Positions 2,576-30,600 of a stretch of 64,000 nt of DNA are shown piece by piece. The DNA lies in contig CM065885.1 in the NCBI GenBank assembly GCA_033439255.1, positions 434,001 through 498,000 on the forward strand, given 5' to 3'. Position 1 is the stretch's first letter; each line of letters opens with the position of its first letter. The stretch comes from Hericium rajendrae. Its lineage: Eukaryota; Basidiomycota; Agaricomycetes; Russulales; Hericiaceae. The translations under genes were made by a program, and so were the position numbers. A model generated the notes under the pieces. That model had not been told where the DNA came from, searched no databases, and saw only the letters and a program-made list of their open reading frames with translations.

Positions 2576-3891
2576 TTAATCTCTGATCCCAGCTGCACGT
2601 ACGAAGCTGACGACCGCCTCCACATCCCGGCCAGGCTGCGCGATCGACGACGGCACATTCGCCTGCAAGGCCTGCTTGAGCACGCACGCCAGCCCATTGA
2701 CGTCCGTGATGTCGCCGACGTCAGGGGCACGAACGCGTCGACGCGCCCGGCGTTCGCGCCGAACGGAATGTCGCGCGAGGTGTAGAAGTCGAGGATCGCG
2801 GCGAGGGTGTCGACGAGCCCGAACGGCGTGCCGCGGCGGAACCAGTTGCGCGGGAAGTGCTCGGGGACGTTCTCGTAGCGGCCGTCGGGCAGCTTGCGTG
2901 CGCCGAAGATGGCCGCGATGGAGGCCTCGTTTGCGATTCCGCCATCGCCGAAGGTGCCATTGGTGAGGAACTCGGGAACGAATGCCTGAGTCCACGTGAG
3001 TTCGTCGAAATCCAAATTCTGCGGCGGGACCGGCGCAACTGACCTTTGCGCCGATCATGACCAGCGCCTCGACTGGCAGGAAGTAGAATATCGGATTGTG
3101 TGCCACGCTGTGGTCATACCTAGCCTTTTGCACGTCCTTCATCGCGTCGATGGTGTACTCACCCCCATACTTCGCTGCGATGCTCTGCATCTGGACATAA
3201 AGGTTTGGATCCAAGGCGCGAGACTCGTTGAAATACGCATCCTGCCGCGTGGCAGCAGTATCGCCTACACAAGCCTGGTGAGCTGATACTCAAGTTGTGC
3301 GTGTGGAAGAAAACATACCTTCTGGACCTGTGCTGTGGTAATTGAGCCCACCCTCGTAACCGAGCAGTGGCTCGAGAAAACCCAGAGCGGCCGTGCGCGG
3401 GTCAGGGCCGCCAATTGAGAGCTTGCCCGTGATACTGAAAGGCGCTCAGCCATGCTCAGAGCCAATAGTAGAAGGAAAACTCGGCACTCACAGGTCTCCG
3501 TCATTTACGACAGAAATTAAAAAGAGGAACTCTGCGAGGTCCGCGCCCATGTTGAAGCCCTCCGCTGTCGCGGCGATGACCTCGGCCTGCGTCACGATCC
3601 CGCTGCGAGGCAGGTATCCATGGTTCGCGAGCCTGCGCCAGAGACGTAAATCAAGGCGGAATATTCAATAAGGACATATACGCACGTATTCAAACCGGGG
3701 CACGGTCCCCGTTGGTCCGTCGGCCCTGGAGGTTGGAACGGATGTGCAGCGTCTGGGATCCGCTTAAGACCGTCGACATTTGCAACGCCGTTGTCCTGTG
3801 CGGAGGGGGGACGCCCGGATCTCAGATAAGCTGGGAAGGCATTGCAGGCTGCAAAGAGAGAGAAAAGACAGGCGGGGCGGATGAAGATCAT
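2576..3891 (-). CDS. Heme-thiolate peroxidase (chloroperoxidase / unspecific peroxygenase family), frame disturbed
   Basis: Secreted heme-thiolate peroxidase that would use H2O2 to oxygenate or halogenate organic substrates. The ATG at 3891 starts a hydrophobic signal peptide. The proximal heme ligand motif PCP is in GPCPGLN at the end of exon 1. The conserved HGYLPR, GFNMG and SIGGPDPRT blocks follow, and the acid-base motif EGD-x4-R is present as PEGDTAATR. Exons: 3891-3686, 3632-3492, 3434-3319, then 3264 onwards; introns are 53-57 nt. Two problems follow. After ...VMIGAK (3044) the family frame resumes only if 25 nt (3043-3019, with GT and AG ends) are removed, too short for a normal intron. 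Near 2727-2724 the frame must gain one base, at a CCCC run, to reach the C-terminal block DVGDITDVNGLA that ends at 2576. Family assignment is firm; whether the gene is functional, mis-assembled or a young pseudogene is open. Confidence 0.8.
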
Positions 3892-5210: not shown

Positions 5211-7120
5211 CTAGTCCAGATCGTCAAATCCACTAAGCCACCTCTTCATGGCATGGCTACATATCTGCATTAGCATTCCGTGGATGCTACCCGGACGATA
5301 AGTGAGACTCACCGTCTCCGTACGGGGAGAATTCTCGGGCTGGCTGTCGCGCTGTCTTCCTGCGATGCGGTAGGGACCGGCGTGCTCAAACTCCCAAGAT
5401 CTGTGGAGCTCTGTGTCTCGAACGAGCCAGTCGAACTTTCCGCATCGGACGAGTCGGCAGGATCGTCAGACAAGACTGTAGGCGCGTCAGGCAGACTTGT
5501 CACGCTCGACGGTGGCGCGTCACCGGACAAAGTAGTTGACACAGCGCTGGGAGTCGCTTCGCTGTTTGCAGCGCCAGACGTGGTAGGGAACACCTCGGGA
5601 CCCAATCCCCAGAAATAGGTAAAGGGCGGCACCGATACGCTGGAGGGGATCTCGCCAGCGGATCCTGAAGGTACTCCCGTCGTGGTGGGGTCCGCTGTCG
5701 TGGTAGGGTCTGCCGTCGTGGGGTCCGTCTCGGTGGTTGGGTCTGCTGTCGTGGGGTCTGCCTTCGTGGTAGGGTCCACCTCGGTGGTAGGGTCCGCCTC
5801 GGTGGTGGGATCCGCCTCGGTGGTGGGATCCGCTGCCGTGGTGGGGATTGCCGTGGTAGGGTCTGCCTCGGTGGTTGGGTCTGCCTCGGTGGTAGGGTCT
5901 GCCTCGGTGGTTGGGTCCGCCTCCGTGGTGGGAATTGCTCCGTGGTGGGGATTGCCGCCGTGGTAGGGTTTGCCGCCGGTGGTAGGGATCTGCCTCTGTG
6001 GTAGGGTCTGCCTCCGTGGTGGGGATTGCTGCCGTGGTGGGGATTGCCGCCGTGGTAGGGTCTGCCTCCGTGGTAGGGTCCGCCTCCGTGGTGGGGATTG
6101 CTGCCGTGGTGGGGATTGCCGTCGTGGAGAGGTCCCGCGTCGTGGAGCTCTGCGACTTGCTTGGTACTTGCGAGGCACTGGCCGCAGTCGAGGACGTCTG
6201 CGATCCAGAAACAGCCCCAGAAGCTGGTGGTCTCCAGCCCTTCGTACTAGTCGAAAGCCCCCTTTGGGATCGTGCTGGTCGGCGTGGGCTGCGACTTCGT
6301 GCTCGTCACCGTCGAATTCGGCGTCGTGCTCGGCGATGTTGTCTCTGATGTCGCGCTCGTGAATGTTGGATTCCCCTTCGTGCTGGTGGCCGTCGGATTC
6401 GGCTTCGAGCTGACTGGTATCGGCGTCGGCAGCGGCTTCGTGCTGGTCAGCTCGGGCGTTGTGCTGATCACCGTCGATGTTGGTTCGACCGGAGTGGATG
6501 TTGGTTTGGCCAGGGTTGATGTCGGTTTGACCGGAGTGGATGTCGGCTTGACCGGAGTGGACAGCTTGACTGAAGTCGATGTTGCCTTGACCGGAGTTGA
6601 CGTTGGTTTGACCGAAGTCGACGTTGGTTTGACCGGGGTCGATGTTGGATTAACCAGCACGGGCGTTGGCTTGACTGGAGGTCGATGTTGGCTTGGCTGA
6701 AGTCGTTGTTGACTTGACTACGGTCGATGTCGGCTTCGTGCTGGTCGATGTCGGCTTCGGCTTCGTGCTTGTTGGCAGCGGCTTGGGTTTGGACTGGACT
6801 GGCGTCGGCTTGGGTTTTGGTGCTGGCTTAGGCTTGGGATTCGCCTTGAAATCCTGTCCAGTCCTGGAGCATAACATTTAAGAATGATACCATAGGCCTT
6901 TACACAAAGCAGATACTTACCCGGTATTCTGACGACCGAAATTAGAGCCATATCGAACTACGTCTCCGTCTCTGAAGCACTGAGGACGACGTCGAGACAG
7001 GTGAGCCAGCAATCGCGGAACCGTATTGGGGCTATCGACTTACTGGATAGGACCAGCGACGGACGGCGCCACCTGCGTGGCGACCAAGAGGGCAACGGCT
7101 GCTGTCGCGTATGAACGCAT
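5211..7120 (-). CDS. Secreted Thr/Pro-rich tandem-repeat protein with C-terminal KR-WLSGFDDLD, frameshifted copy
   Basis: Paralogue of the protein at 20419-21462. Exon 1 (7120-7044) encodes a signal peptide, MRSYATAAVALLVA then APSVAGPIQ. Exon 2 (6971-6921) encodes RYGSNFGRQ. Exon 3 (6863-5313) is repeat-rich: Lys/Pro segments, then PTST(P/S)VK units, then PTTEAD units, then a Ser-rich tail containing YFWGLGPEVFPTTS. Exon 4 (5256-5211, 46 nt) encodes RHAMKRWLSGFDDLD and stop. Introns are 56-72 nt. Inside exon 3 the repeat frame is interrupted at least three times by what look like 1-nt indels (about 6677, 6250 and 5985), so no single frame runs from exon 3 start to end. Because both ends, the promoter block and all splice sites are conserved, either the repeats are mis-assembled or the gene was broken recently. 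Likely a cell-wall or secreted protein, possibly Kex2-processed at KR before WL; no function is known to me. Confidence 0.65.
5690..6140 (-). repeat. 18-nt tandem repeat encoding PTTEAD-type units
   Basis: Degenerate tandem array within exon 3 of the Thr-rich gene. Units of six codons (PTTEAD, PTTAAI, DPTTEA) alternate with five-codon variants (PTTAD). One-base slips inside the array change the reading frame near 5985, which is the kind of place where polymerase slippage or assembly errors occur. Confidence 0.85.
6475..6720 (-). repeat. 21-nt tandem repeat encoding PTST(P/S)VK units
   Basis: About ten degenerate copies of a seven-codon unit in the same exon. One extra base near 6677 breaks the frame between this array and the upstream Lys/Pro segment. 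Confidence 0.8.
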
Positions 7121-7181
7121 TATGATAAAGAGGCTGAGTTTTGCGGTTTGGACAAAATCAAAAAGAGCGGATTTGATGAAA

Positions 7182-7272
7182 AGAAAGAATACAGGAGACC
7201 AGCACCTGTAATGAATGGGATTGGGGAGCAACCAGGCTGGAGAATAGGGCGGTTTCACTCCCGGTATTTGTA
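7182..7272 (-). promoter_or_regulatory. Conserved upstream block of the Thr-rich gene, with TATA-like TACAAATA
   Basis: The minus strand at 7245-7182 matches, with few differences, the plus strand at 20271-20334 upstream of the paralogue (shared cores CTCCAGCCTGGTTGCTCCCC and GCTGGTCTCCTGTA). A TATA-like TACAAATA lies at 7272-7265, about 150 nt before the ATG, comparable to TTTAAATA before the paralogue. The block probably covers the core promoter and the 5' leader. Confidence 0.6.
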
Positions 7273-8324
7273 GCTTTCTTGCTCGCTGATATTGAACAGT
7301 ATGCCCTGCGCCGGCGCTGTTGTATTCGTGTTCGCATCGCTGACTCAGATTGAAACATCCCGGAGTAGGGTTATTTGCATACATTCTCTGGATTTCAGCC
7401 GTATCTAGGCTTGCCGCCAAGTGATATAAACGACATCAGCCCTTACCAGCGAAAGGGAAACATTGATGAAATAACAGCGCTGGCACGCAGTCGTCAACCG
7501 AGGCTGCCGTGGTCGATCTGAGGCAAGAGAACACTTCTTGTCTGTGCTCTCGCTCGGTGCAATTAATCTGTAGACGAGGGGAGACCTACATAGGGATATG
7601 ATAAGGGCATCGAATGTTTCCGGGCGCGTTATACCTTCTTCGCTCGATCTGCCATCTAATCAAGCTGGCGCTCATCACAACCCACGCATGAGAGAAGACG
7701 CAGAAGCTATCCTCTCCTATGCCATTGAAATCGATGCCAACCAGGGACATCACGATTGCAGAAGGTGCTGTCCGGTCGTCGAAGATCCTTCTTGATTTTC
7801 CGTTCTTCTATCACGATTCATACACTGCAATCTCTTCAGTACCTCAGTACATGCGTCGTAGCGAGGGCGGGACGTGCCAATTGCATTGCACCGGGCTTCT
7901 GCCAGTGACGGTCGTCGCTGCGACTAGGCTGTTCGCCCTAAATGAACTCGATTCCAATTTTCCCTTGATCAATATATCGTTGACTTACTGACGCTCGGAT
8001 ACACAACTTTAGACGACCCTTCGATGAAGGTCCGTCTGCAGGCTCGCATACCCGGTCGGCTCCCGGACAACGGTCCTTAGCTAAAAAGATTCATCGCTAC
8101 CGCACCGTCATTTGGCTCCAACTCGAGCCCTTCCAGGCTCATTCAGCTGCTCCATCAGTTCCATTTGAATTTTTGAAGTGCCTGCTGCGACCATAAATAC
8201 ACTGTGTACCGTCGCATGCGCAATGCATATGAGCAGAGAAACAAAACGAAAGCGTGCGACACAGCCAAAGCAACAACATAGACTTTGAGACATCACAGCA
8301 GAGTACGACTTCTTGACCCCGTCT
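7273..8324. other. Intergenic region
   Basis: Separates the Thr-rich gene's promoter from the xylulokinase stop codon. Short frames only; nothing recognised. Confidence 0.4.
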
Positions 8325-11211
8325 TTATACAAGCGCCTTCACTAGCATGCCTTCCAGGCGGCAGTACTCCGGCACGATCGCCGCGTACGCCATGAACGCG
8401 TCCACGTCCGGCTCCGCAACCTTGCCCAGCCCGACCTGCATCTCGGCCTCGCCGGTCGGCAGCGCAGTCACTGGGGAGAGTGTTGTTGCTGTCACAGTAG
8501 CCGCGGCTGGATCCGGGGCACCATTTTCCCTGCAGCACCGCCGAGCGTCGCGCCGAGATCGGGCGTTGTGAACGCCGTCGACGGCTGCAGGGAGCTCGAG
8601 CTCGTCGTGCTGGTGCTGTTGCTCGTGATTGTGCGCGTGCGCCCCGCGATGTCTTCCTCCCCGTACGCGCCGTTGTAGAGGTTCGTTGGCGTAGTGGCGT
8701 TAGCGGCGCTCTCGACGCCGAGCCGCTCGAGTTCCTCCAGCGCATCCTCATCCTCTTCCGCAAAGACAGTCGAGCCAAAGCCGGACCGGTGGCCAAAGGG
8801 CGTGCTCGGCCCGCTGCTCGCCGTCGGGTTCGGGAAGGCTGGCATGTTGATGTTCGTGCGCAGCGGCGTGCCGCCGGTCGCGACCCAGCGCTTCGCAAGC
8901 AGCCTGCGCACCTCCTCTTCAAAGCTACTGCGGGCGGAGGCACCGCGCTCCTTGCCCCAGACCCACCGCGCCATATACGCTCCACCAAGAGAGGCGCGTC
9001 CAGGGAACCCGCCGGCAGGCGAGTTGCGGTGCGGCGAAACTTGTGCAGAGTCGAGTTGCGTCGTCGGCATGAACACCGGCGCGTTCCACACCTCCGCGAG
9101 CAGACTCGCCACGGACGGGAAGTTTGCTGCCGCGCCCGTGGTCAGGATGCGGCTCGGCAGGGACTGATAATCATAGGGGTCGAAGGAAAGCCCGATGGTG
9201 GTGGCCGCCGCGGGCGCGATGGAGACTGGCGTGCCGGTACGGCCAGACTGCGAGCCCGTGGCGCCGGGTACTGGCGATGCGGTGGAACTGGCGGATTGGA
9301 CAAAGTTGTTGCCGCGCGCACGGCCAGCGGTGGCACCCAGGACGCCCGTTGCGACCATGCGAGACCAGCGTACGCGGAAGGAGAGAACCTGGCTTTCAAC
9401 GAGGCAGCGGGGGTTCGCGCGGAGGTCGCGGAACTCGTTGACCTTGATGCCCGTTTCGAACCGGAAAATGCCCTTCACATGAGAGAGCGGGAAGCTGTCA
9501 CCTTGTAGTAACCAGTAACTGAAAAGCTTGTCGTCTAGACTGTCAAGGAATAAGGAAGGGCGTTTCTGATATGTTGTCGTAACGCACCCAATTGAACCGC
9601 CTGGGGGGACCACAGAGATCAAACGATCAAATGCACTCCAGCTTTTGGTATACATGTCCCGCACCAGCGCTCGTGGCACATCGGCGTTTCTGGGAGATAT
9701 TTGAGGATGCTGATGCAGAAGAGTAAAAGGACGACCCACCTGCTGTTGAGCATGATGATGTATTTTCGCTTCTCGCTAGGATCTTGTGCTGGATGAGGAA
9801 AAATGTTGTAGAGACGAGTAGGGAGGTAGTGTGGAGCGCTGGTGAGAAGGAGATCCATGGGACCGAACGAGAGGACGGCATCCGCCGGAGAAGGGCAAAG
9901 GGATAAATAGGTTGACAGATGATCCGGGGTAAAAGATGCAAGAATTGTATCTGGAGAGTTGTCAGTCAACAGCAGCTCCTCAACAAGCCCTCTACTGACC
10001 AGGCTCAAATCCATATCGCTCCACGAGATAGCGAGACACGGTCCCAATCCGTCGACCGCCTCCAGAGACGTCTACCTCGCCGAGCCATGCGCGAACCCGG
10101 CGGCCTTCCTCCGCGGAGCCACCAATGAAATCGAGCACACCGTCATCCCAGTGTCCCTGCCCGCCAGCAGCATGCACCCACATCCCAGTGGAACACGCCT
10201 CAGCCTCGCCCATGCCGACCCAAGAGCCCCCGATTAAACTCGCCAGGAACGCAGAGGCAATTTGGATGCGACCAGTGCGGGCCCAGACATCCGGTGACGC
10301 CTCCCGTACCCGCAGAAGCTGAGCGGCAATGAGCGAGGCATGGGCACTCGTGCCGACACGGGCTGCCATGTGGTCTGGACCACCCAGAGTGGCTTCCAGA
10401 GCAAGAGCATGGGAATGGGAGAAGGTATCTTGCGCAACTGGTGTGTTCGCAAGAGAGAACACATTTGGGGAGAGCTGCGAGTGCAGAGGAAGTCGAGAGT
10501 CGAGAGCAGGGAACGAAGGTATCGGTGTGGACTTCCACCAAACTAGAGCAGACTTGGGAGAAGAATTAGCATCAGAGCATCTATCGATCTGTCTGTGCAG
10601 CTTTATGCGTGACGGGGTAACGGTATATGGACCGACAGAATGGCGCGTACCGAGAAAAACGGAAGCAAATCTCACCTGCGCTGAACCTCCAATCGACTTG
10701 AATCGACCAATGTCATAATTCCTGCTCACTTTTTCGAGGAGAAAATCTGCAAAATTTTCGTGTTAATGAAATCGTGATAAGAACGTCGTGAATGGATGGG
10801 CCGATTGACGCGCGAATGAGCACGAGGTGGTCATGGTGGCGTCACGATCAAGCAAACGATCGAATTTTGCGACGAAGGCATGGGGAAAGTGGTGCGGACA
10901 ACGTACCAAGGGCCTTCACCCACATATCGACCGGCGTGGTATACGCATCTCCAGGTGTCGTGAAAATGCCGCCCTGTGTCCTGAATACGAGTCAGTTAAT
11001 GCTGCAGTACGCTCGCGCACACGCGCATCACAGCTATCGGACAATGTTACGAACAAGCTACTCACTGGTACTCTGACAACTCCGTGTCAAAATCAATTGC
11101 CTCTACCCCTATCAACTCCAAGCTCTCATCCACGATCGACGCACGCAGCTGGTCCACAGCGAGCTCTAGCCCGAGAAAGAGCGCTTGCCCAGTCTTCGCC
11201 GGTGCAGGCAT
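8325..11211 (-). CDS. Xylulokinase (FGGY carbohydrate kinase)
   Basis: Phosphorylates D-xylulose with ATP to xylulose 5-phosphate, the last step that feeds pentoses into the pentose phosphate pathway in the cytosol. Exons by eye: 11211-11066, 10980-10907, 10746-10676, 10552-10000, 9950-9740, 9689-9588 and 9518-8325. The N-terminal LGLELAVDQL sugar-kinase strand, TQGGIFTTP, GGSAQ with ALVWWKS, TGRIQIASAFLASL and the C-terminal RILTTGAAANFPSVASLLA plus NAPVF blocks follow the eukaryotic XylB order. The region between the two FGGY lobes and the C-terminus carries long Ser/Thr/Ala/Gly-rich insertions not found in the animal enzyme. Near 8524-8527 the frame must shift to reach the C-terminal AEMQVGLGKVAEPDVDAF segment. 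This could be one base lost at an AAAA run, or an unrecognised intron with a GTACGG donor about 140 nt upstream. Family call is secure; exon 7 details are not. Confidence 0.88.
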
Positions 11212-13400
11212 GTTGAGCGAACGTGGTCCAGAGGGTTTGGTGCGGTGGTATCCGTCAATGGTATCCTCAGAGATGAATGTGGTATGAAATTTTGTGTATG
11301 GTATGTGATCGTGGTGCGGTCGTCGTCAAAATCGTTGCCGAATCTAAAGGGCGACCAAATCCAAAAAAGGTCGCGGGTATGTGCAACCGCTCTCCGAGGG
11401 CTGCAGTGAGGGCTGCACGTATGCAAACGAGAGAAAGAGCGAGAAGAGACAAAAGCGAAGAGAAGGGGGAAATCACTCTCAGGATCAGCAGCTATTGCTT
11501 CCAAGCTTCGTCGCCGGCGTCTCTTTGCTTCTGCCTCTCTTTCCCACGCTCAGCCACCCGTCTTCATTGCGTCTTCATCGTTACTGCGACACTAGATGTG
11601 CTACACATCCATTTGACTGTTCGTTTGACCTCATTTGATGCACGATTACACAAGTGTTCTTGGATTAACCTATCGCTGCCTCTGCTGAACAATTTCAGCT
11701 TTTTTTTTGGCGTTAAGTCGCATGATGGTCGTCTATCGGAGACAGACAGCGCATCCACGAAACATAACCACTAAGTGCGGAGAACGAGAGAGGTTGCATC
11801 CATTAACGTTATTCATGCAAGCAGTCCATTTCGATAAAGTCATTCTCACCCTGCTACCCATCTCCAAACGCCATGATTAGGTTGATAAGTCATCGCGTCT
11901 GACCACCGAAGGTACTGAAGTCATCATCCTGGTGAACTCATTTGAATAGAACCCTAGGGAACTTACCCATTCGGGAAAAACGTATGGTGCAGAAGGTTTC
12001 GCGTCGCACAAATGCATTTCATCGCGTCAATGTGGGGTTATATATTTGCCACCATTTCGATAGGAACCCAGTGTGGACTTTGTTCTTCGGCGAGATGGAT
12101 CAGCAGTATCGGCATGGAGACTATGGTGCTGGGCGACGTAGATAAGAAACATGAGTTGCGCTCCAGTTGCTGCAAGGTCGACTGGAATGGCGGGTCGTCT
12201 GCCCTTGTCTGGCTGTGAATGCGTCGAAAAGCGATGTCTCAGAAGATGGAAAATCGCCGGGCGAAAGATGACGAGGCCGGAATTTCGGCGGACCCACGAG
12301 GTACGACGGGGGGAGTGTGCGCGCTTGAGGGAGGTCCAGCGAGCCGCGGCGTACTTACCAGAGATAGGGCAACAGTGGACGCGCAGTTGCAGTAAGCGGT
12401 TGGTCTTTTCGGAAAAGACCAGATGGAGGAGGGAAGATGCGACTCGTGAGAGTCGCGAGCACGGCGTCGGGCGTCGGGGAAGGAAAGACAGTGGACCTCG
12501 GAGCGTGGCGGTGGAGTGGCGGTGGGCGCGGAAGCAAGTGTTTGGCGACGGTGGTTTAGGGAAGCGCAGACCGACCTGAAATAGCACTAGGAGCTGCCGT
12601 TCGAGCATAATAGAGAGACACATATAAACTGCGAGTCTGCGATGCGCACAATTTTCGTGAGTGATGCACGCTCTCTGATTCGCAGAACGCACGCACTCAA
12701 GAAGGTTCGTACGTTCCGCCGACAAGAGACAAATTGTCTGCGGTAGCATAGGATCGTATCAGCGCTCGATACCATAGGATGTCAATTTAGGACATTACAG
12801 AGGCCTAGAGTACGTTCTATTCCATTCTTGAAGACCGAACAGAAGAAGCTTCGAGTTTTATTCCCAGATTACCGCTGAGTTCCGAAAGGAACCTTCCAGC
12901 TCCATCATGCGGAGTGAATATGGCCTCTGGACCTGTACTAGGCCTCACACGTTCGATTTTTGAGATTGGCGAGTTCAATCCGAGGGGCATAACAATGTGC
13001 CTCTAGCTTCGAGTTATTACAATGAGAATGCTGCGCAACTTTCACGCACCAATGATGATTGCAAGGACGAGGCGAGGGGTCAAAGCAATTACGATTAGCA
13101 TTAAGGTAATCCATCATCCGCAATGCCTTGTAATGGATCTCTAGTTGGGGATTCATCTCATCAAGACAATGGTACATTATGTATAATGAAGAGATGCATG
13201 GATGATAATCCGGCCACCATCCTCTAACGCGCAACGTTTGAGAGGCGGAGGATGGACGAACGCCTGGGAGGCAGTTGTGAACTGGACCGGTTCGGAACTG
13301 GTTCGGGCATGTTCGATTGATGCGCTGCGCTGTCACATGGACCCACAAGCCAATCTTCAGTCCGCCGCTCACCGTCTTCCCCACAATCCAAACCTTGAGG
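11212..13400. other. Intergenic region with a GC-rich island, gene uncertain
   Basis: 11212-12040 is probably the xylulokinase 5' region. From about 12045 to 12620 GC content rises and open frames exist on both strands. On the minus strand a GT-AG structure can be imagined, with one open piece ending in QPLTATARPLLPYL before a GTAAGT and another containing DDPPFQSTLQQLERN. I recognise no family and cannot choose a start or strand, so no gene is called. 12800-13400 shows nothing clear before the SPC1 start. Confidence 0.3.
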
Positions 13401-13890
13401 ATGTCTCTTTCTCCATCTATCCAGACATTCATCGAGGGAAGAATTGTGCGTGTCTCTTCTATGTATTATGCGCGAGTTACTGATACTCCTAATGTCGACG
13501 AATTGCAGGACTTTGAGGGGCAGAAGACAGTCGATGTCATCTCGCGATATGCCCTCGCAGTCCTCACCGTTAGTTCCCATCTTACTCTCCTCATGCGTGT
13601 CTGTTCTGATCTGGTGCCAGTTTATCTCCTTCGTAGCTGGCTTCGCGCTTCAGTCGCTACAAGTCACGTTTGCCATGTTAAGCGGCGGGACGTTGCTGCT
13701 CTTCCTGGTGCGTGTTCTCCAAGGACAGGACACAGGAAGCCGAGTTCTTACGCGTTTGCATCAGGTCGTTCTGCCTCAGTGGCCATTTTATAACCGAAAC
13801 CCTGTCCAATGGCTACCCGCGCTCAGTTTGACAGTCGGAAACGGAGAAGAAGACGAGGTGACAATAGGGACACCAGAAGATTGGGGATGA
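13401..13890 (+). CDS. SPC1: Signal peptidase complex subunit 1 (SPC12 family)
   Basis: Small accessory subunit of the endoplasmic-reticulum signal peptidase complex, which cleaves signal peptides of secretory proteins. Exons 13401-13445, 13509-13568, 13621-13707 and 13765-13890 give a 105-residue protein in frame; the introns are 52-63 nt. The family signature is plain: DFEGQK before the membrane part, two hydrophobic segments (FISFVAGFALQSLQVTFAML and SGGTLLLFLVVLP) forming a hairpin, then WPFYNRNPVQW and an acidic tail. Size and topology equal yeast Spc1. The ATG at 13401 is chosen because it gives a short hydrophilic N-terminus typical of the family. A divergent or second transcript is not suggested. 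Confidence 0.9.
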
Positions 13891-14555
13891 GATAAGTATA
13901 CCCTAGTGTTGGACGGATGATGGATGGGTTCTGTACTGCGTACGTATTTGTCTATTACTTTTTAGCCTGCAGTTTTGGTCTGCGGCGATATGGAGTTCGC
14001 TTTCCACGAACTCTGCTCATGTCATGCTCATGACACTGAACGAGATTTGACAATGTAAGCTCAGTTTTCTCCCCTGGACCCGAAGTGCTGGGCGGTTTCG
14101 GCAGTACAATGTGGTAAAATGAGGTGGACGATGATCGATGATCTGTGTTTCTTCTACGAGGGCATCAATCATTGTCGGACGATGACCCGCTATTGTGTCC
14201 ATGTTTCGCGGCGAGTGGTGATACGTACTTTCCGTTCTGCGTCCTCGCATTTTCCAGTCTTATTCTATGCAAGCTGGCCTCGCTAGAATCGCGATCCTCG
14301 TGCAAATAAGAGAATTGTTTTGCGGCGGCTCACTGCGGGTCGGGGAAGGACCGATGAGGAAGCGCTGTTTACTGTACGAGCCGGTTCGGGACGGGATCAA
14401 ACTCCGCTTGCTGTTCAGTCCTCGCCAGCGCCCACGACCGCCGCCATCCCTCCTTTCCGTTCCACACCACTTCCTCGTCATCGTCGACAACGTTGCCGGC
14501 GACGACGACGACGACCTCGCTGTCCAACCCCATCGTGGCCCGATTGCCTCGATTC
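13891..14555. other. Intergenic region, kinase 5' leader
   Basis: No gene seen. The last ~60 nt before 14556 stay open in the kinase frame but contain no ATG, so the leader is probably untranslated. Confidence 0.4.
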
Positions 14556-17500
14556 ATGGTCACAGCCGTCTATCCGACTTCCCTAGCCGCGCACGTCCCA
14601 CCCCAGCCGCGCGACCTCTTGACCGACGCCAGCGCCTCCCCCGAGTCGCAGTCCGGCTCGACGACGCCCTCCCACGGTGGCATGGTCACCGGCCACGAGT
14701 TCGACATCCCTATCGAAGCACCCGCCCCCGCCCCCGCCGCCCGCCAGTACGCCTCCGAGCAGACGCCCACCCCGCCCGCGACGCCCCACCCCCTGCCCAT
14801 GTCCCCGTCCATGCCCACCCAGCGCGCCACAAACGGTGCTGCGCGTCCCCGCCCGGTCTCAATGCCGCCCCAACAGTCGCAGGCGTATGCGCCGCCCCCG
14901 CCTCGCTCGGCGAGGCAGTATGAGGATGGCAGCCGCGACCGCGAACGTGACAAGGAGCGAAGGCCGCCACCGAGCTCTGCATCGGACATCTCGCGCTCAA
15001 GAACGACGAATCGAATCCTTGGCGATTATACCCTTTCGAAGACGCTCGGTGCGGGGAGCATGGGCAAAGTCAAACTCGCCCATCATAATCTCACCGGCGA
15101 AAAGGTAAGCCGCATTTCTGTATCCTGCCCTCTGTGTTTCTTTTGGTTCTCGTTTCTTGTTCTGAGCATGCGTCTTCGGAGGCTCCAAATTTTGACTTGG
15201 ATGGCCTGTCCGAACTTTGATATCATCACTGTTCAGGACGGGTTCATATCCATGCGCTTGCATCAGAGTCTTCGCAACCGCTGGAACATTCGAGCTCTGC
15301 GGTTCACTTGTCACTTTTTTAAAGACATGTTAGGGTTCCAGCGAGTGCGAAAACTCTATTCATAAGGCAGCCACTCGCGGGAGGAGGTGCTTCTGGCTCT
15401 GAGACTCTGAGGCTTCCCCTCGCTGGCCTGTTCGAACTTTGATTTCATCACTGTTCGGGGCAGCTTCATTCCAATGCGTCTGCATTCACGAGCTTCCCGG
15501 TCGTCCATCGTTATAGGAGTATGAGACAGTCCAGCACGCGAGTGCGCGGATGTCGCATGTGACGAGCTTTGCCTGCGTCGGCGCCCGTTTCGGGCGTCGA
15601 TCGAGGATAACAGCTGCGTGCTCCCGTACTTCGCGCTCAGCGTCAATCTCGTAGCGTTTTCACCGTTCGTGCATTCATTCTAGTGGCGCCCATGGGCGCC
15701 ATTTTTGACGTGCTTGTGTTTCCGAAGCATTGCAGAGTCACCAGTTACCATCATGTGAACGCATCACCCCTTAATATCTACTGACGACCATCTTCACTAG
15801 CTCGCCGTCAAAATCCTTCCCCGCGTCATCCCCGCACCGCCAAATCCCAATGCACCAAATCCTGAAGCTGCCGCAAAGCAGGCTAGCAAGGATGCCAGCA
15901 AGGAGATCCGCACCCTCCGCGAGGCGGCGCTCTCCCAACTCCTCTATCACCCCTACATCTGCGGCATGCGCGAGATGATCATCCACCAGCACCACTACTA
16001 TATGGTCTTCGAGTACATTAATGGCGGTCAGATGCTCGACTACATCATCAGTCATGGACGGCTGCGCGAGCGCGTTGCGAGGAAGTTCGCTAGGCAGATT
16101 GGGAGCGCGCTCGAGTACTGTCACAGGAATAATGTCGTGCACCGCGGTTCGTGGTTTTCATCCCGCTTGTGTATTTATCTAATGGCGCTCCTCAGATCTC
16201 AAGATCGAAAATATTCTCATCTCGCAAACCGGGAACATCAAAATCATCGATTTTGGTCTCTCGAATCTGTATGACCCAGTCGGGCACCTATCTACGTTCT
16301 GTGGTTCGCTCTATTTCGCAGCTCCCGAACTACTGAATGCAAAGGTCTACACGGGCCCCGAGGTCGACGTTTGGAGCTTTGGCGTCGTCCTATACGTGCT
16401 GGTATGCGGGAAGGTTCCGTTCGATGACCAAAGCATGCCTGCTCTGCATGCAAAGATCAAGCGGGGTTTGGTGGAGTATCCCGTGTGGCTGAGTGCAGGT
16501 GCGTCGACTACGCTGTTCATTTCCATCATTTGCTCACAGGAATATAGAATGCAAACACATACTCTCCCGCATGCTTGTCACCAATCCTGCAATGCGTGCC
16601 CCACTGTCCGAGATCCTCGCGCACCCATGGATGGTCCGTGGTTTCAATGGCCCCCCGGACAGCCATCTCCTCCGGCGCGACCCGCTCCGCGCAGACGAGC
16701 TCGACCGGCAGGTCATCCGCGGCATGGTCGGCTTCGAGTTCGGCACGGAGGACGAGATCGAGCGGCGATTGATCGACGTGCTCGAGTCAGACGCCTACAT
16801 CCGTGCGGTACAGCACTGGGAACGCAGGCGCGAGGGCGGCGGGACCGCCAATGGGCGCAACGGCCGTCACTGGAGCGAGTCCCTCTCCAACTCGTCGCTC
16901 GCTGTTTCCTCATTTGACGGGAGCACCGCTGTCGGCTCAGGCACCCAGAACGGCCGCTCGTCTGGCGATGTGTCCGCCACGTCCTCGCCATCGAAGAAGT
17001 CGAAGCGCTTCTCTGGCTTCGATTTCTATCGCCGCAAGCTGTTCTCGCCATCGACGTCCCCGCCATCGACGCCTTTCTCGCAGTCGCCGGCCGCATCACA
17101 ATCTCACATTTCCCATTCCTCACTCGCGGATGCGGGCGGGCGGGAGCCGCTCGACCCTACAAGAGGATTCCATCCGCTCATTTCTATCTACTACCTTGCA
17201 CGGGAGAAGCTTGAACGCGACAAAGTCTACGGGCCTGGCCACTTCGCCAGCTCGCAGCTCTCCCTCTCTCCGCCTGTAACCAACAACGGTCCGCAAGCTG
17301 TTCAGGCACCTTTAGACGCAAATGGTCCTGCGCCGCCGCCTTCCTCCGCGAAGCCGAGCATTCACTTCGTGAATGCGCCGCCGCCCAAGCCCGCAGCAAA
17401 GGCGGACTACAGCATGCCCCTCCCACGCCTCCCGGCACCGGAGACGTCGCACTACTCCGGAATGTCGTACGATGCCGCGTCGCCGTCGGCGGCGCAGACT

Positions 17501-19296
17501 CCGACGACACCCACTTTCCATCTGCAGGCCCAGCCCCGCGCACGGGACGCGGGCCTGGCGGCCCCAGGCGCCGCGAGCGTGCCGAGCTCGCCTGCGCGTC
17601 CTACGATGCCCCGCGCGCCGCCCGCGTCGACGCACCGTCGCAGCCACAGTCTCAGCCAGCGGCCGAGTGCCGGTCGGTGGGGCGGCATGTTTGGCGGGCA
17701 CGAGCCGCCGCGCACCGCGGGGCCGGAGCTCGCGACCTTTGCGGAGAAGATGGAGGAGAGCGCGCCGGGCTCAGAACCCAGCTCTGCACCACCCGATGTG
17801 ACGGTGTCGCCGGCGACGCCGGGATCGACGCTCGTGCGGCGGTTTGGAAGCTTGTTGGTCGGTGGGGGCAGCGTGCGCGAGGACGGCACCACGGGCCGGC
17901 GGGGCGGCTCAAAGAGGACGAGCATCCTGGGTGGCTTCGCTTCGCCGCGACCATCTGGCGATGTGGAGGATGTGCCCAAGGATGCGGAGAAGGCGCAGGA
18001 GACGGAGACGAGCGCGGAGGCCGAGTTTGGACATGGTGTGTCCGCCACTGGCGGAATTCCGCACAGCCAGACGATGCCCGCGCATCACCGCCGCGCGGCG
18101 ACGATCCTGGATCCGCAGGGCCATTCGGCGACAGCGCGACACGAGCGCAGAGCTAGTGCGGGAGCGTCGATGCTGTCGGGTCCTGGTGGCACGATCGGAC
18201 GCTATCGCCGGCCATCGACTGTCACGAGTCGCCCTGGCTTTGGAAAGCGCTTTTCGCGGACCGATGAGGAATATGCGGAGGACGAAGAAGCGGTCGCCAC
18301 GGAAGAGCAAGTGGAGGCACAGCGCGTGGCAGACGAGCAAGAAGATGAGAGGAATGGAAATGCGGCGGATAAGGACTTCAAGCCCCTGTTCTTGAAGGGT
18401 CTGTTTAGGTGCGTTTTCCGTGATCCGTTGCATGTCTTTGAACTTATGGCGTTCGTTTGTGTTCAGTGTCGCCACGACTTCCACAAAGGCGCCGTCGGTG
18501 ATTAAATCCGATATCAGGCGCGTGCTCGACCGAATGCAGGTCCAATATCGCGAGACCAAGACTGGCTTCGAATGCATCCATATACCCTCAATTGACCTTT
18601 CTTCGGTCCCTGATTCACAGCAACCGCCGCCCTCGACACCTCGTCAAAGTCGGCATCGCAAGCAAGGCTCGTCTGGATCCAACGAGTCGAGCGGCACGCG
18701 CAGATCGATCATCCGCAAGGCGTCCAAGCTTTCTTTCGGCACGAATCGCCGGGAAAAAGACAGAGAGCGCGAGAATTTGAGTGTGCAGAAGGACAAGGAG
18801 CTCCCCAGTCGGCCATCAGGGGGCACGACCTTCACCGCGACACCGAGTAGCGGCTCGTCATCCTTCTTCAACGTTTCGTCCAACACTCACACGGTCACAG
18901 GCGATGGCCAACGCGCCCCCACCGACGAGGGCGCGCCATCGTCCGCTCTGCAGACGGAGGATTCGCCACCAGCGAAAGGCAAGAATCTGCCACCCATCCC
19001 GCGTGACTTTGCCGCGACCGCGACACCTCAGCCTACGGGGCCCATATCGCCGCTGCCGACCGGAGAGGTCGATCGTGATGTGTTTGAGACGATCGGCCAA
19101 AACACGCTCTCCGTTAGGTTTGAAATCAACATCGTAAAGGTGCGTCCGATTAGCGCGCATGCATTGGACATTACTGATCTATCTGATGCAGGTACCGTGG
19201 TTGCCATTGCACGGGATCCAGTTCCGACGGGCCAGTGGCGATGGATGGCAGTACCAAATGCTCGCGCGGCGCGTTCTCACCGAGCTCAAGCTCTAA
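14556..19296 (+). CDS. KIN1: KIN1/KIN2 (MARK/PAR-1 type) serine/threonine kinase
   Basis: Cell-polarity and exocytosis kinase of the AMPK-related family. Exons: 14556-15104, 15801-16146, 16196-16498, 16548-18408, 18467-19139 and 19192-19296. Kinase domain: glycine loop [13 protein letters not shown]-type lysine in LAVKIL, catalytic [18 protein letters not shown], an activation loop LSTFCGS with the threonine that LKB1-type kinases phosphorylate, AAPELL, and the lobe end [10 protein letters not shown] long low-complexity Ser/Pro-rich region follows. The C-terminus ends with a KA1 membrane-binding domain ([13 protein letters not shown] to RVLTELKL). The first intron is 696 nt, more than ten times the others, and contains an internal duplication. 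The upstream frame is open but lacks an ATG, so 14556 is the best start; the kinase and KA1 domains are beyond doubt. Confidence 0.92.
15202..15486 (+). repeat. Diverged direct repeat inside kinase intron 1
   Basis: A 62-nt segment at 15202-15263 recurs at 15424-15485 with 51 of 62 positions identical by hand count (shared CGAACTTTGAT and TCATCACTGTTC). The copies are 222 nt apart and both lie within the unusually long first intron. Confidence 0.8.
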
Positions 19297-20242
19297 CGAC
19301 TCGTATGCCATCCGCATGATATGCTCTTCTCCCGCATCTCCTCTCGGTGTCTCCGGGTCTCGCCCTCATACGCACTTGTTACATGTGAACGCATGCAGTT
19401 TGACGGTTGACGTCATACCAGTTAGGATTCTGATTATTTGTTTGGTTTGTCCATTATGAGGTGGTTTTGATGCTTTCGCAGTACGGCTCGCTCTATTATT
19501 CATTTCCGTGCACACCGTTTCTTTTACCGCGCTTTAGTTCGCTCTCTCTAGTTCTGCTAGATCGCCATTCGCTCACGCCCGTTTGTGGTTTGCCGTGCAT
19601 ACACATGTCAACAACATTGCTGCTACATTATATGGCCCGGCCATCAGTCTCGTGAATCTAAATATATCCACGAGACACGAATGGCCTCAAACGACCGCGT
19701 CACACAGCACTATGTAATGTACCCTGCACTGATCCTACCCGGACCATTACTTAGGGCAAAGACCCTGAATGCTGGGCCGTTCCCGATCAGTGACAACGAT
19801 TCTTACCAAGTCGACTCGTCGCAAGATGAACGAAGTAAGCAATGCATACGTAGGAGTACTGTGCCCGGGGTATTATTATACCCTGTAGTACTCCGATGGT
19901 TATCAGGTTGGGCCTGTGGTATGCACTTGTATACTGTGTCGTAACATTACGGATTTAACGCCGGTGCAGTGAAACACTGGATCAGGAATGGATCATGGTA
20001 GTGTGGTAATCGACCAAAACAGTTCTTTTGATACGCATCACTGTTGACCCTGCAACTCGAGTGCACTGTCGGACTGGACCCTGCGCAAATGAGGGTAAAC
20101 CTGCTTAATGGAGTGGCATGCAGATCGACGACGCCCTGTATGGATTAGCAAAGTTGCCCTATTCATTGCCTTTGGGTGAAACGACTGATCAGCGCTCGAC
20201 GAGGGCACCGCCATAGGGCCCGCTGTCGCTGGGCCAGAAACC
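19297..20242. other. Intergenic region
   Basis: Kinase 3' region followed by the upstream region of the Thr-rich paralogue. No gene recognised. Confidence 0.4.
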
Positions 20243-20334
20243 TTTAAATAGTGGGGGGAGGACTCACCGAATTCTCCAGCCTGGTTGCTCCCCCATCTCA
20301 TTCAACTTACAGAAGCTGGTCTCCTGTAGTTCTT
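20243..20334 (+). promoter_or_regulatory. TATA-like TTTAAATA and conserved upstream block
   Basis: TTTAAATA at 20243-20250 lies about 170 nt before the ATG at 20419. The block 20271-20334 matches the reverse complement of 7182-7245 upstream of the paralogous gene. Conservation of non-coding sequence argues that the whole transcription unit was duplicated and that both copies are, or were, similarly expressed. Confidence 0.65.
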
Positions 20335-20418
20335 CACTCATCGCATTCGCTCCTTCCATTTCGCCGACATCTCTAAAGCTCACCAAGTCCAAGTCCTTGA
20401 TCACCGTCCTTGATCACC

Positions 20419-21462
20419 ATGCGTTCATACACGACAGTTGTTGCCTTGTTGGTCGCCGCGCAGATGGCGCCGGCCCTCGCTGGTCCTATCCAGTATGTCG
20501 ACAGTCATGCACGCTTCTGAGGTCACTGGCTCACCTTCGATATTATTCCCAGAGCCGCCAGAGATGGAGGTGTAGGCCGATACGGGTCTGTGTTTGGTCG
20601 CCAGGATGCTCCGTAAGTTTATGTTCAGCATACGAAGATGTACTAGCATCTTACCATTATCCCTCCAGAGCCCCCGCAGTAGCCGCAGCGGGGGCGAAAA
20701 AGCCTCCTCCTCCTCCCAAGACCACGAAGGCGCCGGTCACTACGAAGGCGCCGGTCACTACGAAGGCGCCGGTCACTACGAAAGCGCCGGTCACTACGAA
20801 AGCGCCGGTCACGACGAAAGCTCCAGTGACCACGGCCGCACCGGTCAGCACGAAGGCTCCAGTCAACACGAAAGGGCCAGTCACCACGAAGCCGCTGACC
20901 GGTTCGGGGACGAAGACGCTCTCCGCGACCGCGAGCGGCACGGCAATCCCATCCGGTTCCGTCGGAACCGTGTCCACCTTGTCCCAGTCGATCCCCGTCC
21001 CGTCCGACTACTTCGGCTTGGGCACTGAGGTGCTCGCGACCACGTCGGTGACCCCGATTCCGTTCCCGAACCCGTCTGCGTCTGTTGCAGCCAGCGGCGC
21101 CTCGGTCACCAAGACCGCGGTCGGGACCGGTGCGACCACGGCTGCGCCAGGAACCACGAAAGTTGCGACGGGCGCGCTGCCCGACCCGACTGACAGCGTC
21201 GCCCTGCCGGATTCCAACACTGACGATCCCAGTCTGCCGGGAGGGTCCAACACCGATGTGCCCGATCTATCGAGCACCCCGACGGACTCCGTGGTGTCCC
21301 CTGGCACGACGGACGCGCCCGCGCCCGTCGACGACCCTACCGACACCCCCCTTGGGAAGAGGTGAGCATGATTACTGCCCGACGCGCATTGGATGCATGC
21401 TGACGCACAAACCTAGGTCTGCCGAAAAGAGGTGGCTCGCTATGTTTGACGACTTGGACTAG
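20419..21462 (+). CDS. Secreted Thr/Pro-rich tandem-repeat protein with C-terminal KR-WLAMFDDLD
   Basis: Intact member of the pair, 290 residues. Exon 1 (20419-20492) encodes a signal peptide, MRSYTTVVALLVAAQMAP then ALAGPIQ. Exon 2 (20553-20612) encodes RDGGVGRYGSVFGRQDA. Exon 3 (20669-21361) holds nine TKAPVT-type units, then a Ser/Thr/Pro/Gly/Asp-rich region with YFGLGTEVLATTS. Exon 4 (21417-21462, 46 nt) encodes RSAEKRWLAMFDDLD and stop. The LGKR and AEKR sites are dibasic and Kex2-like; cleavage after the second would release a nine-residue acidic-aromatic peptide. The Thr/Pro repeats predict heavy O-mannosylation. No known domain or GPI signal is visible (the C-terminus is acidic, not hydrophobic). 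I do not recognise the family. It could be a wall protein, an effector or a peptide precursor; the dibasic site and conserved tail are seen, the processing is inferred. Confidence 0.85.
20724..20885 (+). repeat. Nine 18-nt tandem units encoding TKAPVT variants
   Basis: Units start ACGAA(G/A)GC(G/T)CC; the first three are identical and later ones diverge (TAAPVS, TKAPVN, TKGPVT). The period (18 nt) equals that of the PTTEAD array in the paralogue, but the encoded sequence differs entirely. Confidence 0.9.
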
Positions 21463-27672: not shown

Positions 27673-30600
27673 TTAGATACCACCAAACTTCGCCCAGTCC
27701 ACCTTCCGCTCCCGACCCCGGCCGACCGAGGTTATATCAGACAGATGACGCATCGTCGGTCTCCCATGCGGACAGTTCCACGGCTGCTCGATCGTTCCCA
27801 TGTGACGAATGACCTGGAGAACGCAATGATGCATTAGTATCTACGAACCGATCTCCCTCGTGCCACGCACCGTTGTCATCTGCTTCACAGGCAGCGCCTT
27901 GCCCACCATGATGCTCTTTCTGCACGCGCGCATGGCGAACATGGCGCGGGCTTTCGAGCAGCGCACCATGGTCCCGGCAGGACGATCATGCATGAGATGA
28001 AGCAATTCTTCAAGATCTGCGAAGACTGTAAGTAAATAAATGGCAGATGAAAAGTGTAGTGAACACGTACCCTTAACGTCGAAGACCGTGGCCTTGCTGA
28101 CTGGCTGGGCCACCAGCTTGACACGCCGATCATCGTCCGGATCGGCAGATTCGTCGACGGCAATCTCGAAACCGTTCTGCTTTAGAACGTCGATGTTTTC
28201 GATCGCAACGAGCTGATCAGCCGCGGTGAGCTCCAGTGTCCTCGGCCTTCAACAATGAGATCAGTCAAGGGCCACAGTCGACTTAAGAAGACAGGATAGG
28301 CTCACGTATACAACCGCTGCGACTCGATCTGCGTCGTCTGCTGCAGCGTCTCAAAATTGTACTTCTCGTCGGACGCATGCTGATCAACGATGAACAGATC
28401 GTCCATCGCGTCCACGCGTCCATCGCCAGCGGCCGCCTTCCTCCGCCGCGCAATGATAAATCCAAGATTGAACTGCCCCACAACCTCCATCGTCTCGAAG
28501 TCGTCCTTGTGCAGCACGCGCGAGAGCACCTCGTCAGCAGCCTCCCCAGTTTCAGCGATGCCTGCCTTGCTCCGCAGGGCCTCTTTTGCGGACGCTTGGG
28601 AGCTGGACAGACTAGCTTCCTGCGAGGCCCGTGCGGAGTCAAGCTTGTCGCGCAGAAGGCCCCAGGCGGCAGCGACGCGGGACAGGTCGAAAGAGGTGGA
28701 ACTTGTGTCTTCGGATATAGTGCGGACGACCTCCGGCGGGCCGATGAGCTCGTCATAGGCGTCAGCGGTCTCTGCAATGATGCTCGAGGAAGCCTTGGGG
28801 CGCGCCTCGAATGCGGGGGTGTTCTGCCCAGATGTCCGTGGCTCATCATCAGTGAGATCGATGATGTCGCTCGAAGCGGCTTTGGAGAGAGCGGGCCTTC
28901 CATCGTTGACTGTGATGAGATCTTCATCTGCAATGATACTCTCCTGGATGTCGACGTCCATCGTCTCATCGACGATGGCAGTACTCAAGTCTGGCTGGAC
29001 AGCGTCCTCCCTCTCGGGAGTGACATCGCTCATCTCCTCGTCTTCGTCCTCCTGCTCATCCTCGTCTTCATCTTCTACATCCCGATCCACTGCATTTTCA
29101 TCCTTCTTGCCTACCGTCTGACTCCCACTCGCAAACCCCTTCAGTTTCGTCATAAAACTCTCCTTCGCCTTTCTCCCAGTCTCAAGCCTCGGCCTCTTCC
29201 GTCTGTGCTCCGACCCTTCCTGGGCGCTCGTGCCCCGCCGTAGATTCCACGACGCGCCAGACGTATCCAGCACCATCTGTACGCCGCGCGTCTTGTCCTT
29301 CGACGCGGCATTCACGCTCTTGTCCGCGTCTCCGTTGAGAATACGCTCGACCGTCGCGGGCGCGCGGCCAGTGGACGAAGCACGCGAGCTACCACGCGAA
29401 CTGGACTGGGCATCGTCGGCGGCGATCGGTTTCTGTACCGCTCCAGAAGGCGCTGAAGTCGTCCGCCTGGATGTGCCAGCGCTGGAAACAGACCAACTGA
29501 TGTCCGCCGAGGAGATACACTTGCGACTGGTATTAGCGCCGGCATCCTTGACGATGCCCGCAGGCTCCTCGTCCTCGTCCTCTTCCGGCGCCGCGTCCTC
29601 GTCTGCGGCATCTACTGCGATGACATCGTGGGATACAGGTAGAGGCAACCGAAGTGCGGGCGTGCGGAGCGTCTCCACCAATGGCTCGGACTGCGACGAC
29701 GAATCGGGCTGCAGGGGTTCATCGTCGTGTAGTGACGGCGGCACGGTGCTATCGTCCCCGCCCGCGGGGTGTTCCGTTGATTTATGTTGGGAAACCGTGT
29801 GTGAAGGGCCTGCTACCGATTCTTGATCGAGCTCATCGACTTCGGCGTCTTCGGTCGTTTCGTCCGACACTTCTTGTTCATCGCCATCTATGCCAACCAG
29901 GTCTGATTTGTGCGAGTCCTTCCGGCTTAGGGAAGCGGAAAGCTGTGGTCTTTGAGATGCCTGCGTTGCGTTGAGCGTAAATGTAGACCGCGCCGACGAG
30001 AATGCATCTGTCAGGGTAGCCTGATCGGAATTGCCCGAACAAACGGAATTCATGTTTCGAGTCAATCTGATGTTGTACTGATATAGCATGAGCGAAAGGG
30101 CTTACCTTGAGTGCCTCGATGAGGTTGTTCTCGCTGTGGAGCAGAATGGTCCTTTTGTCTGGGCTCACGTTGATATCGCATGATTCTGAAGCAAACATCT
30201 CAGATGTGATCACTCCAAGATGGCCGTCAAGAACGGACCGGTGGGTATGATGAAATCAGCGACTATAAAAGGAGACTGTTGTATGTTAAATGTCTTGTAC
30301 ACTTCGTTGAACGCCTTCTGAACCTGATCCGAAGACCTTCTCAGCATCGGTGACTAGAACCATGCAGTGATTATTACCTTTACCGGCGAACAAGGACGCC
30401 CATTGATAAAAAAGAACTGCCGGTCAGTTCCTGTCCTGCCGCACCCCACAGAGAACTTCGACACAAGACCGTGCACCCGAACGATATTGGTGCTGTTGGA
30501 TGCACTGTGATACAACAACAATAAAGCACGGGACATAACAATCACAAGGCAGGCGCTAGCGTACCTATCTCGATCCAGCCCGCGCCTTCGAAGGACGGAT

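Follow-up and report, generated by a model that had tools for sequence, protein, structure and literature searches.

Three paralogs with a shared architecture

We analysed a window of 64,000 nucleotides from the basidiomycete Hericium rajendrae (bases 434001-498000 of contig C8, in a genome of 46.8 Mb in 19 contigs). It carries two genes, here called A and B, for predicted secreted, repeat-rich proteins that end in the same acidic residues, FDDLD. A third paralog, gene C, lies on another contig. The three genes have in common a signal-peptide-like start, the intron phases, parts of a block in the middle of the protein (mid-block), a pair of adjacent basic residues (dibasic pair) and FDDLD directly before the stop codon. 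They vary in a RYGSxFGRQ motif, the residues WL, a 46-nt last exon, the repeats and the spacing between the dibasic pair and FDDLD (4, 4 and 3 residues in A, B and C). The conservation described below is that among these three paralogs of one genome. The family has at least three members, a lower bound because the genome search with protein B missed gene A (i.e. its sensitivity is limited).

A preliminary description of this DNA had placed the two genes at 7120-5211 (minus) and 20419-21462 (plus), and both positions held when the exons were read. Each gene has four exons, and the six introns are all GT..AG and 55-72 nt long. The parts of the two genes are as follows, in window coordinates.

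7044..7120, minus strand: gene A exon 1 (77 nt), signal-peptide-like start
6921..6971, minus strand: gene A exon 2 (51 nt), contains RYGSNFGRQ
5313..6863, minus strand: gene A exon 3 region (1551 nt), repeats spread over three frames, no single open frame as assembled
6473..6718, minus strand: gene A 21-nt tandem repeat, PTSTPVK type
5677..6145, minus strand: gene A 18-nt tandem repeat, PTTEAD/PTTAAI type
5211..5256, minus strand: gene A exon 4 (46 nt), R-HAMKR-WLSGFDDLD-stop
20419..20492, plus strand: gene B exon 1 (74 nt), signal-peptide-like MRSYTTVVALLVAAQMAPALA followed by GPI; weak match to gene C exon 1 (E-value 0.10)
20553..20612, plus strand: gene B exon 2 (60 nt), contains RYGSVFGRQ
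20669..21361, plus strand: gene B exon 3 (693 nt), with basic TKAPVT repeats, the mid-block YFGLGTEV..VTPIPFPNPSA, an acidic stretch and a first KR
20721..20895, plus strand: gene B tandem repeat (TKAPVT), 18-nt unit, 9.7 copies
21417..21462, plus strand: gene B exon 4 (46 nt), R-SAEKR-WLAMFDDLD-stop

The shared outline proposed for A and B is largely confirmed. Their intron phases agree (exons of 77/51/1551/46 nt and 74/60/693/46 nt), both exon-1 translations have the start MRSY(T/A)T...AGPIQ, and the block YF(W)GLGxEVxxTTS stands ahead of the tail in each. The RYGSxFGRQ motif is present in exon 2 of both, but it lies about three residues before the junction rather than at the exon end, and it is missing from C. 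The repeats do differ between these ends, with TKAPVT in B and PTSTPVK plus PTTEAD in A, but the two types quoted for A sit in different frames. A variable repeat body between conserved ends is a feature of A, B and C alike.

Gene B has four clean exons and gives an intact protein of 290 residues. The -3/-1 rule was the basis for placing its predicted signal-peptide cleavage position, and by eye the N-termini of B and C are hydrophobic with small residues ahead of GP. Neither protein contains cysteine (0%), histidine or an N-x-S/T sequon. From residue 25 onward Ser, Thr and Pro make up 40.6% of B and 46.5% of C, the commonest residues being T, A and P in B and S, T and K in C. Arginine is rare in the body of B: of six, one is in the start MRSY, three lie within the first 41 residues and two in the tail region. 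A Pfam scan found no domain in C and, in B, a sole 'cementoin' match driven by the repeats, which we dismiss as an artefact of their composition; no PIR match appeared in either. The structure predicted for B exon 3 in single-sequence mode is of low confidence (mean predicted local distance difference test score, pLDDT, 47). Its solenoid, with blocks at 70-76, was probably produced by the perfect repeats in that mode and not by a real fold. A scan of viral contigs with protein B gave one locus, aligned to residues 58-134, that is, the repeat region.

Gene C (C2:319424, locus L012) was first seen as a weak signal-peptide match to protein B (E 0.10). Its exons of 74, 69, 576 and 40 nt encode 252 residues, and in the gene models read from sequence its intron phases are identical to those of A and B. 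C shares the mid-block VTPIPFPxPSA with B (48% identity, E 0.15). Its repeats are of the SSTKGA and TSKTAESK types, unlike those of A and B, its exon 2 lacks RYGSxFGRQ, and it ends in ...SKRDAAPSDPTPFR-AARR-EMEFDDLD. The open reading frames (ORFs) at another weak genome match to protein B (L013, contig C10) show only repeat-type similarity. Further weak matches fall on contigs C16, C5 and C7, and another search gave three weak places.

Gene A, initially taken as intact, is not so as assembled. About five one-base insertions or deletions (indels) shift its exon 3, and the frame that continues exon 2 meets a stop at 6652. The frame order is 1-2-0-2-1, with PTSTPVK in the second frame, part of PTTEAD in the third and the first regained near 5939. 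Judged by eye against the repeat units, there is one base too many near each of 6683, 6260, 5987 and 5978, and one too few near 5939. Either recent damage to gene A or an assembly error in its tandem repeat would fit. If it is a pseudogene, the 'pair' would be one working gene and one decaying copy, which is compatible with any reading of B and C. We consider this possible but doubtful. The indels disrupt the repeat exon, as decay would, but they sum to zero modulo 3, sit in the tandem repeat and leave the piecewise frames free of stops, and no damage is seen in the leader, the splice sites, the mid-block or the tail. An error in assembling the repeat is just as possible, and there is a precedent: a gene of the DELD family (discussed below) is reported as absent from the Serendipita indica genome database, with its repeats the likely cause (PMC3708536).

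The FDDLD tail and the 5' leader

The pattern R-(S/H)-A-x-KRWLxxFDDLD-stop is confirmed in the last exons of A and B, together with their 46-nt length. The last exon of C measures 40 nt, so the length is no family constant. Nor is WLxxFDDLD the constant unit, as had been proposed, since C has EMEFDDLD without WL. A dibasic pair precedes the tail in all three genes, although arginine is otherwise scarce in the body of B: KR in A, KR in B and RR, with different codons, in C. Between the pair and FDDLD lie WLSG (A), WLAM (B) and EME (C). The kept unit is a dibasic pair, three or four variable residues and FDDLD with a free C-terminus. A spacer that varies in kind and number is what would be expected if FDDLD-COOH were the recognised part.

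FDDLD itself is identical in 3/3 tails while its codons change. We count two synonymous and no nonsynonymous changes for A-B and three and none for A-C. For B-C the score is two and one, the one arising from averaging over mutational paths, as the residues are identical. Beyond these five codons the tail is looser (proportion of nonsynonymous differences, pN, 0.26 for A-B, 0.39 for A-C and 0.46 for B-C). Judged by these codons, the FDDLD residues are apparently held by selection; the earlier proposal that the tail is under selection is supported for this part and not for the whole nonapeptide. The A-B comparison also stands out in exon 1, the signal peptide (7120-7044 and 20419-20492), where the proportion of synonymous differences (pS) is 0.10 compared with 0.65-0.72 in exon 2, mid-block and tail. 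This suggests gene conversion or a constraint at the DNA level there.

With up to two mismatches the tail pattern occurs in two places of the 46.8-Mb genome, A and B (none for the reversed-pattern control), which exceeds chance. Exact TTYGAYGAYYTNGAYTRR occurs in four (reversed control 2), namely A, B, C and one FDDFD site in another context. The degenerate pattern TWYGANGANHTNGANTRR matches 20 places in the genome and its reversed control 26, so there is no excess. Three of the 20 are A, B and C, and four others have a dibasic pair near the end. All four were rejected as tails. L034 and L048 read TGG where the motif should be followed by a stop and, like L035 (RKRLKTFDDLE-stop), have in-frame stops upstream. 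L035 also stands behind an apparent P450 end (our presumed label), with no secreted-protein reading seen. L043 (KRHQLTHFDDLE-stop) runs antisense to a reading that we take to be G-alpha-like. L035 or L043 could still belong to a gene that we did not see, as its short last exon.

The family also shares a 5' leader. In A, B and C it consists of CAGCCTGGTTGCTCCCC, a gap of 19-22 nt and GCTGGTCTCCTGTA, is about 52 nt long and starts 115-142 nt upstream of the ATG. In the window the two copies are as follows.

20277..20328, plus strand: gene B leader element, two blocks; TATA-like TTTAAATA begins 34 nt upstream
7190..7239, minus strand: gene A leader element; TATA-like ACAAATA begins 32 nt upstream

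Pairwise identity in the leader is 90-94%, compared with 53-76% in flanks and introns by the same alignment method; 200 shuffles of the A-C pair averaged 62%, with a best of 81%. The TATA-like sequences begin 32-34 nt upstream of the leader, so that the leader is probably the first part of the mRNA. The exact two-block leader occurs in three places in the genome, A, B and C (control 0). Block 1 at two mismatches gives four further sites (control 3), and block 2 at one mismatch gives three (control 1). No FDDLD-like stretch was found in the 1.7 kb inspected at those three block-2 sites, and no family-like start nearby. The leader was rejected as an RNA structure, since its folding is no better than that of shuffles (z 0.06, 0.01 and 0.86), and no Rfam match at gathering score turned up in window positions 1-30000. 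It was also rejected as coding: the block spacing is 19, 21 and 22 nt, and no ATG lies between block 1 and the start codon.

One of the four extra block-1 sites (L027, C6:2535757-2535773, minus strand) has GCTGGTCTC 16 nt behind block 1, a placement at 12-27 nt that 7 of 200000 shuffles of that stretch reproduce, four sites having been inspected. Its best ungapped block-2 score, 9/14, is equalled by another site, L026. Counted from where block 1 starts, an ATG follows after 85 nt. It opens another, 98-nt signal-peptide-like exon (MHSFVVALSMLVATAHAAPFARS...), whose end would be in phase 2, as it is for exon 1 in A, B and C. A diverged leader ahead of another signal-peptide-like exon means that the leader may not be confined to FDDLD genes; going by this site, it may be common to further genes for secreted proteins.

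Processing and known systems

A dibasic pair ahead of the tail recalls a Kex2 site. The change from KR to RR keeps the dibasic character despite altered residue and codons, as a Kex2 site would require. The genome has one P-domain match, and the adjoining subtilase ORF matches yeast kexin chains (E 1.3e-75); the same locus encodes a hydrophobic, transmembrane-like stretch. On this sequence evidence, Kex2 fairly probably cuts after KR/RR before the tail. A search for UstYa (DUF3328), whose gene would be expected near a dikaritin-type RiPP precursor, gave no matches in this genome, but it gave none in any of the 14 control genomes either.

The closest described parallel that we found is the DELD family of S. 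indica. As described in the original paper, it comprises 25-29 secreted, cysteine-free, low-complexity proteins with the C-terminal motif RSIDELD, whose body and tail the authors view as functionally distinct. Two secreted proteins of Laccaria bicolor end in DELD, and 43 putative motifs near C-termini, several off consensus, were noted in the authors' reference genomes (all PMC3192844). The S. indica genes are described as flanked by transposable elements. For the function of the tail, later passages offer translocation or signalling as speculation and otherwise call it unknown (PMC3708536, PMC4620400). The preliminary description called the present family possibly undescribed. This is too strong as to kind, since S. 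indica is already known to have secreted, repeat-rich proteins whose C-terminal ...DELD is conserved (PMC3192844). Among the literature matches listed, none describes the FDDLD family itself; the fungal ones carry RSIDELD, and one pneumococcus paper has FDDLD.

The likeness is broad: both families are basidiomycete, secreted (here by prediction), cysteine-free, repeat-rich and multigene, with a hydrophobic-D-[D/E]-L-D-COOH end and an apparently separable body and tail. There are also differences. All three tails here have FDDLD rather than RSIDELD, with a dibasic pair ahead. The proteins measure 252-290 residues rather than 101-135 and are rich in Ser, Thr, Pro and Lys instead of showing a regular His/Ala pattern, and the two helices predicted for the S. 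indica proteins have no counterpart in the low-confidence B exon 3 model. With the D-[D/E]-L-D end and the architecture but another motif, size and composition, the FDDLD family is not a DELD member. By analogy, it may nevertheless work in the same way.

Three other systems were compared. KEX2-processed repeat proteins (KEPs) are recognised by Kex2 sites that enclose three or more fragments resembling one another (PMC6339444, PMC7329392, PMC9769878). B and C resemble KEPs in having a signal-peptide-like start, internal repeats and dibasic sites. However, their repeats are not bounded by dibasic sites and there is one terminal peptide; in-silico dibasic cutting leaves the repeats in one fragment and yields no three similar ones, so KEP membership of B and C was rejected. 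Fungal alpha-pheromone precursors are likewise secreted precursors with a peptide after KR, whereas the FDDLD tail is single, acidic and non-repeated; we know of no resemblance between it and pheromone sequences. Mucin-like fungal wall proteins of the PIR/Hsp150 type have Ser/Thr-rich repeats and a Kex2 site, but B and C lack Cys and a Pfam PIR match and carry their dibasic pair at the C-terminal end.

Interpretation, neighbourhoods and meaning

Our best explanation, which on the sequence we place just short of an even call, is a secreted, cysteine-free, mucin-like family of at least three paralogs whose DELD-like tail is recognised in the secretory pathway and then parted by Kex2. The signal peptide would direct the protein into that pathway. 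The Ser/Thr/Pro/Lys-rich repeat body, probably O-glycosylated, would be free to expand, contract and drift, while a separate last exon supplies the acidic FDDLD-COOH behind a dibasic pair. The free-carboxylate tail would most likely be recognised while the precursor is still in the pathway. Kex2 would then cut after KR/RR in the late Golgi, giving the body and a tail piece of 8-9 residues. The mature product would be a surface or matrix protein, and the tail piece may serve as a tag to be cut away or be set free as a peptide or signal.

Several points weigh against this explanation. A dibasic pair can stay uncut, the case for selection consists of three paralogs and five codons, and gene A as assembled would not yield a full protein. 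The S. indica tails, in the sequences described, have R and not a dibasic pair before the motif, which speaks against Kex2 removal as a general feature (PMC3192844). Moreover, RSIDELD was among the effector motifs that proved neither enriched in the Rhizophagus irregularis secretome nor constrained in position, and this speaks against a general secretory role (PMC5293756).

The surroundings of A and B in the window are listed here.

8300-10762, minus strand: xylulokinase-like gene between A and B; PDB match 4bc2 to ORF 9992-10759, the extent toward 8300 being a reading
14358-19319, plus strand: SNF1/KIN1-like protein kinase between A and B; the KIN1 label is our assumption
2576-3289, minus strand: peroxidase family 2 ORF downstream of gene A
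28302-30101, minus strand: ORF with a sub-threshold MutL C-terminal match
59999-61387, minus strand: ORF with an AAA ATPase match

ORF 8492-9772, read as part of the xylulokinase, had no PDB match. Around C lie ORFs for a P450, an aspartyl protease, an F-box protein and a fungal kinase. The identified neighbours of A, B and C are ordinary genes. A shared gene cluster was rejected, as the identified neighbours of A/B and C differ; many flanking ORFs had no family match.

A broader version of the explanation, resting on analogy and unlikely in our estimation, is that the hydrophobic-D-[D/E]-L-D end is a portable basidiomycete module carried on unrelated low-complexity bodies, a luminal sorting or packaging tag that is removed by Kex2 here. 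If this is true, selection would act on the module rather than on the repeat body, with His/Ala bodies in Serendipita and Thr/Pro/Lys bodies here.

Alternatively, the proteins could be peptide precursors, from which Kex2 frees WLxxFDDLD or EMEFDDLD as an extracellular signal while the repeat body is a carrier. The dibasic pair stands directly before the tail in 3/3 genes, the tail is the natural C-terminus and needs no carboxypeptidase trimming, and a kexin gene is present. KR followed directly by W is also found in some ascomycete alpha-pheromone precursors. Yet the length and N-terminal half of the candidate peptide vary among the paralogs, each precursor would hold one copy, unlike KEPs, and no receptor or partner is among the identified neighbours (xylulokinase, SNF1/KIN1-like kinase and, at C, P450), the flanking ORFs being partly identified. 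We think this unlikely. Slightly less likely again is an uncleaved cell-wall or mucin-like protein that keeps its tail as an anchor or binding motif, with the dibasic pair incidental or part of that motif: a basic-then-acidic tail could bind by itself and the S. indica tails are described without a dibasic pair (PMC3192844), but here the dibasic character is kept from KR to RR although residues and codons changed.

The family offers a DELD-like tail on its own exon behind a likely processing site. This lets one ask whether such a tail acts while still attached or once it has been cut off, and whether the freed piece has any activity. It also bears on how peptides are sought, as precursor screens that require at least three repeated cores would miss single-copy C-terminal candidates of this kind.

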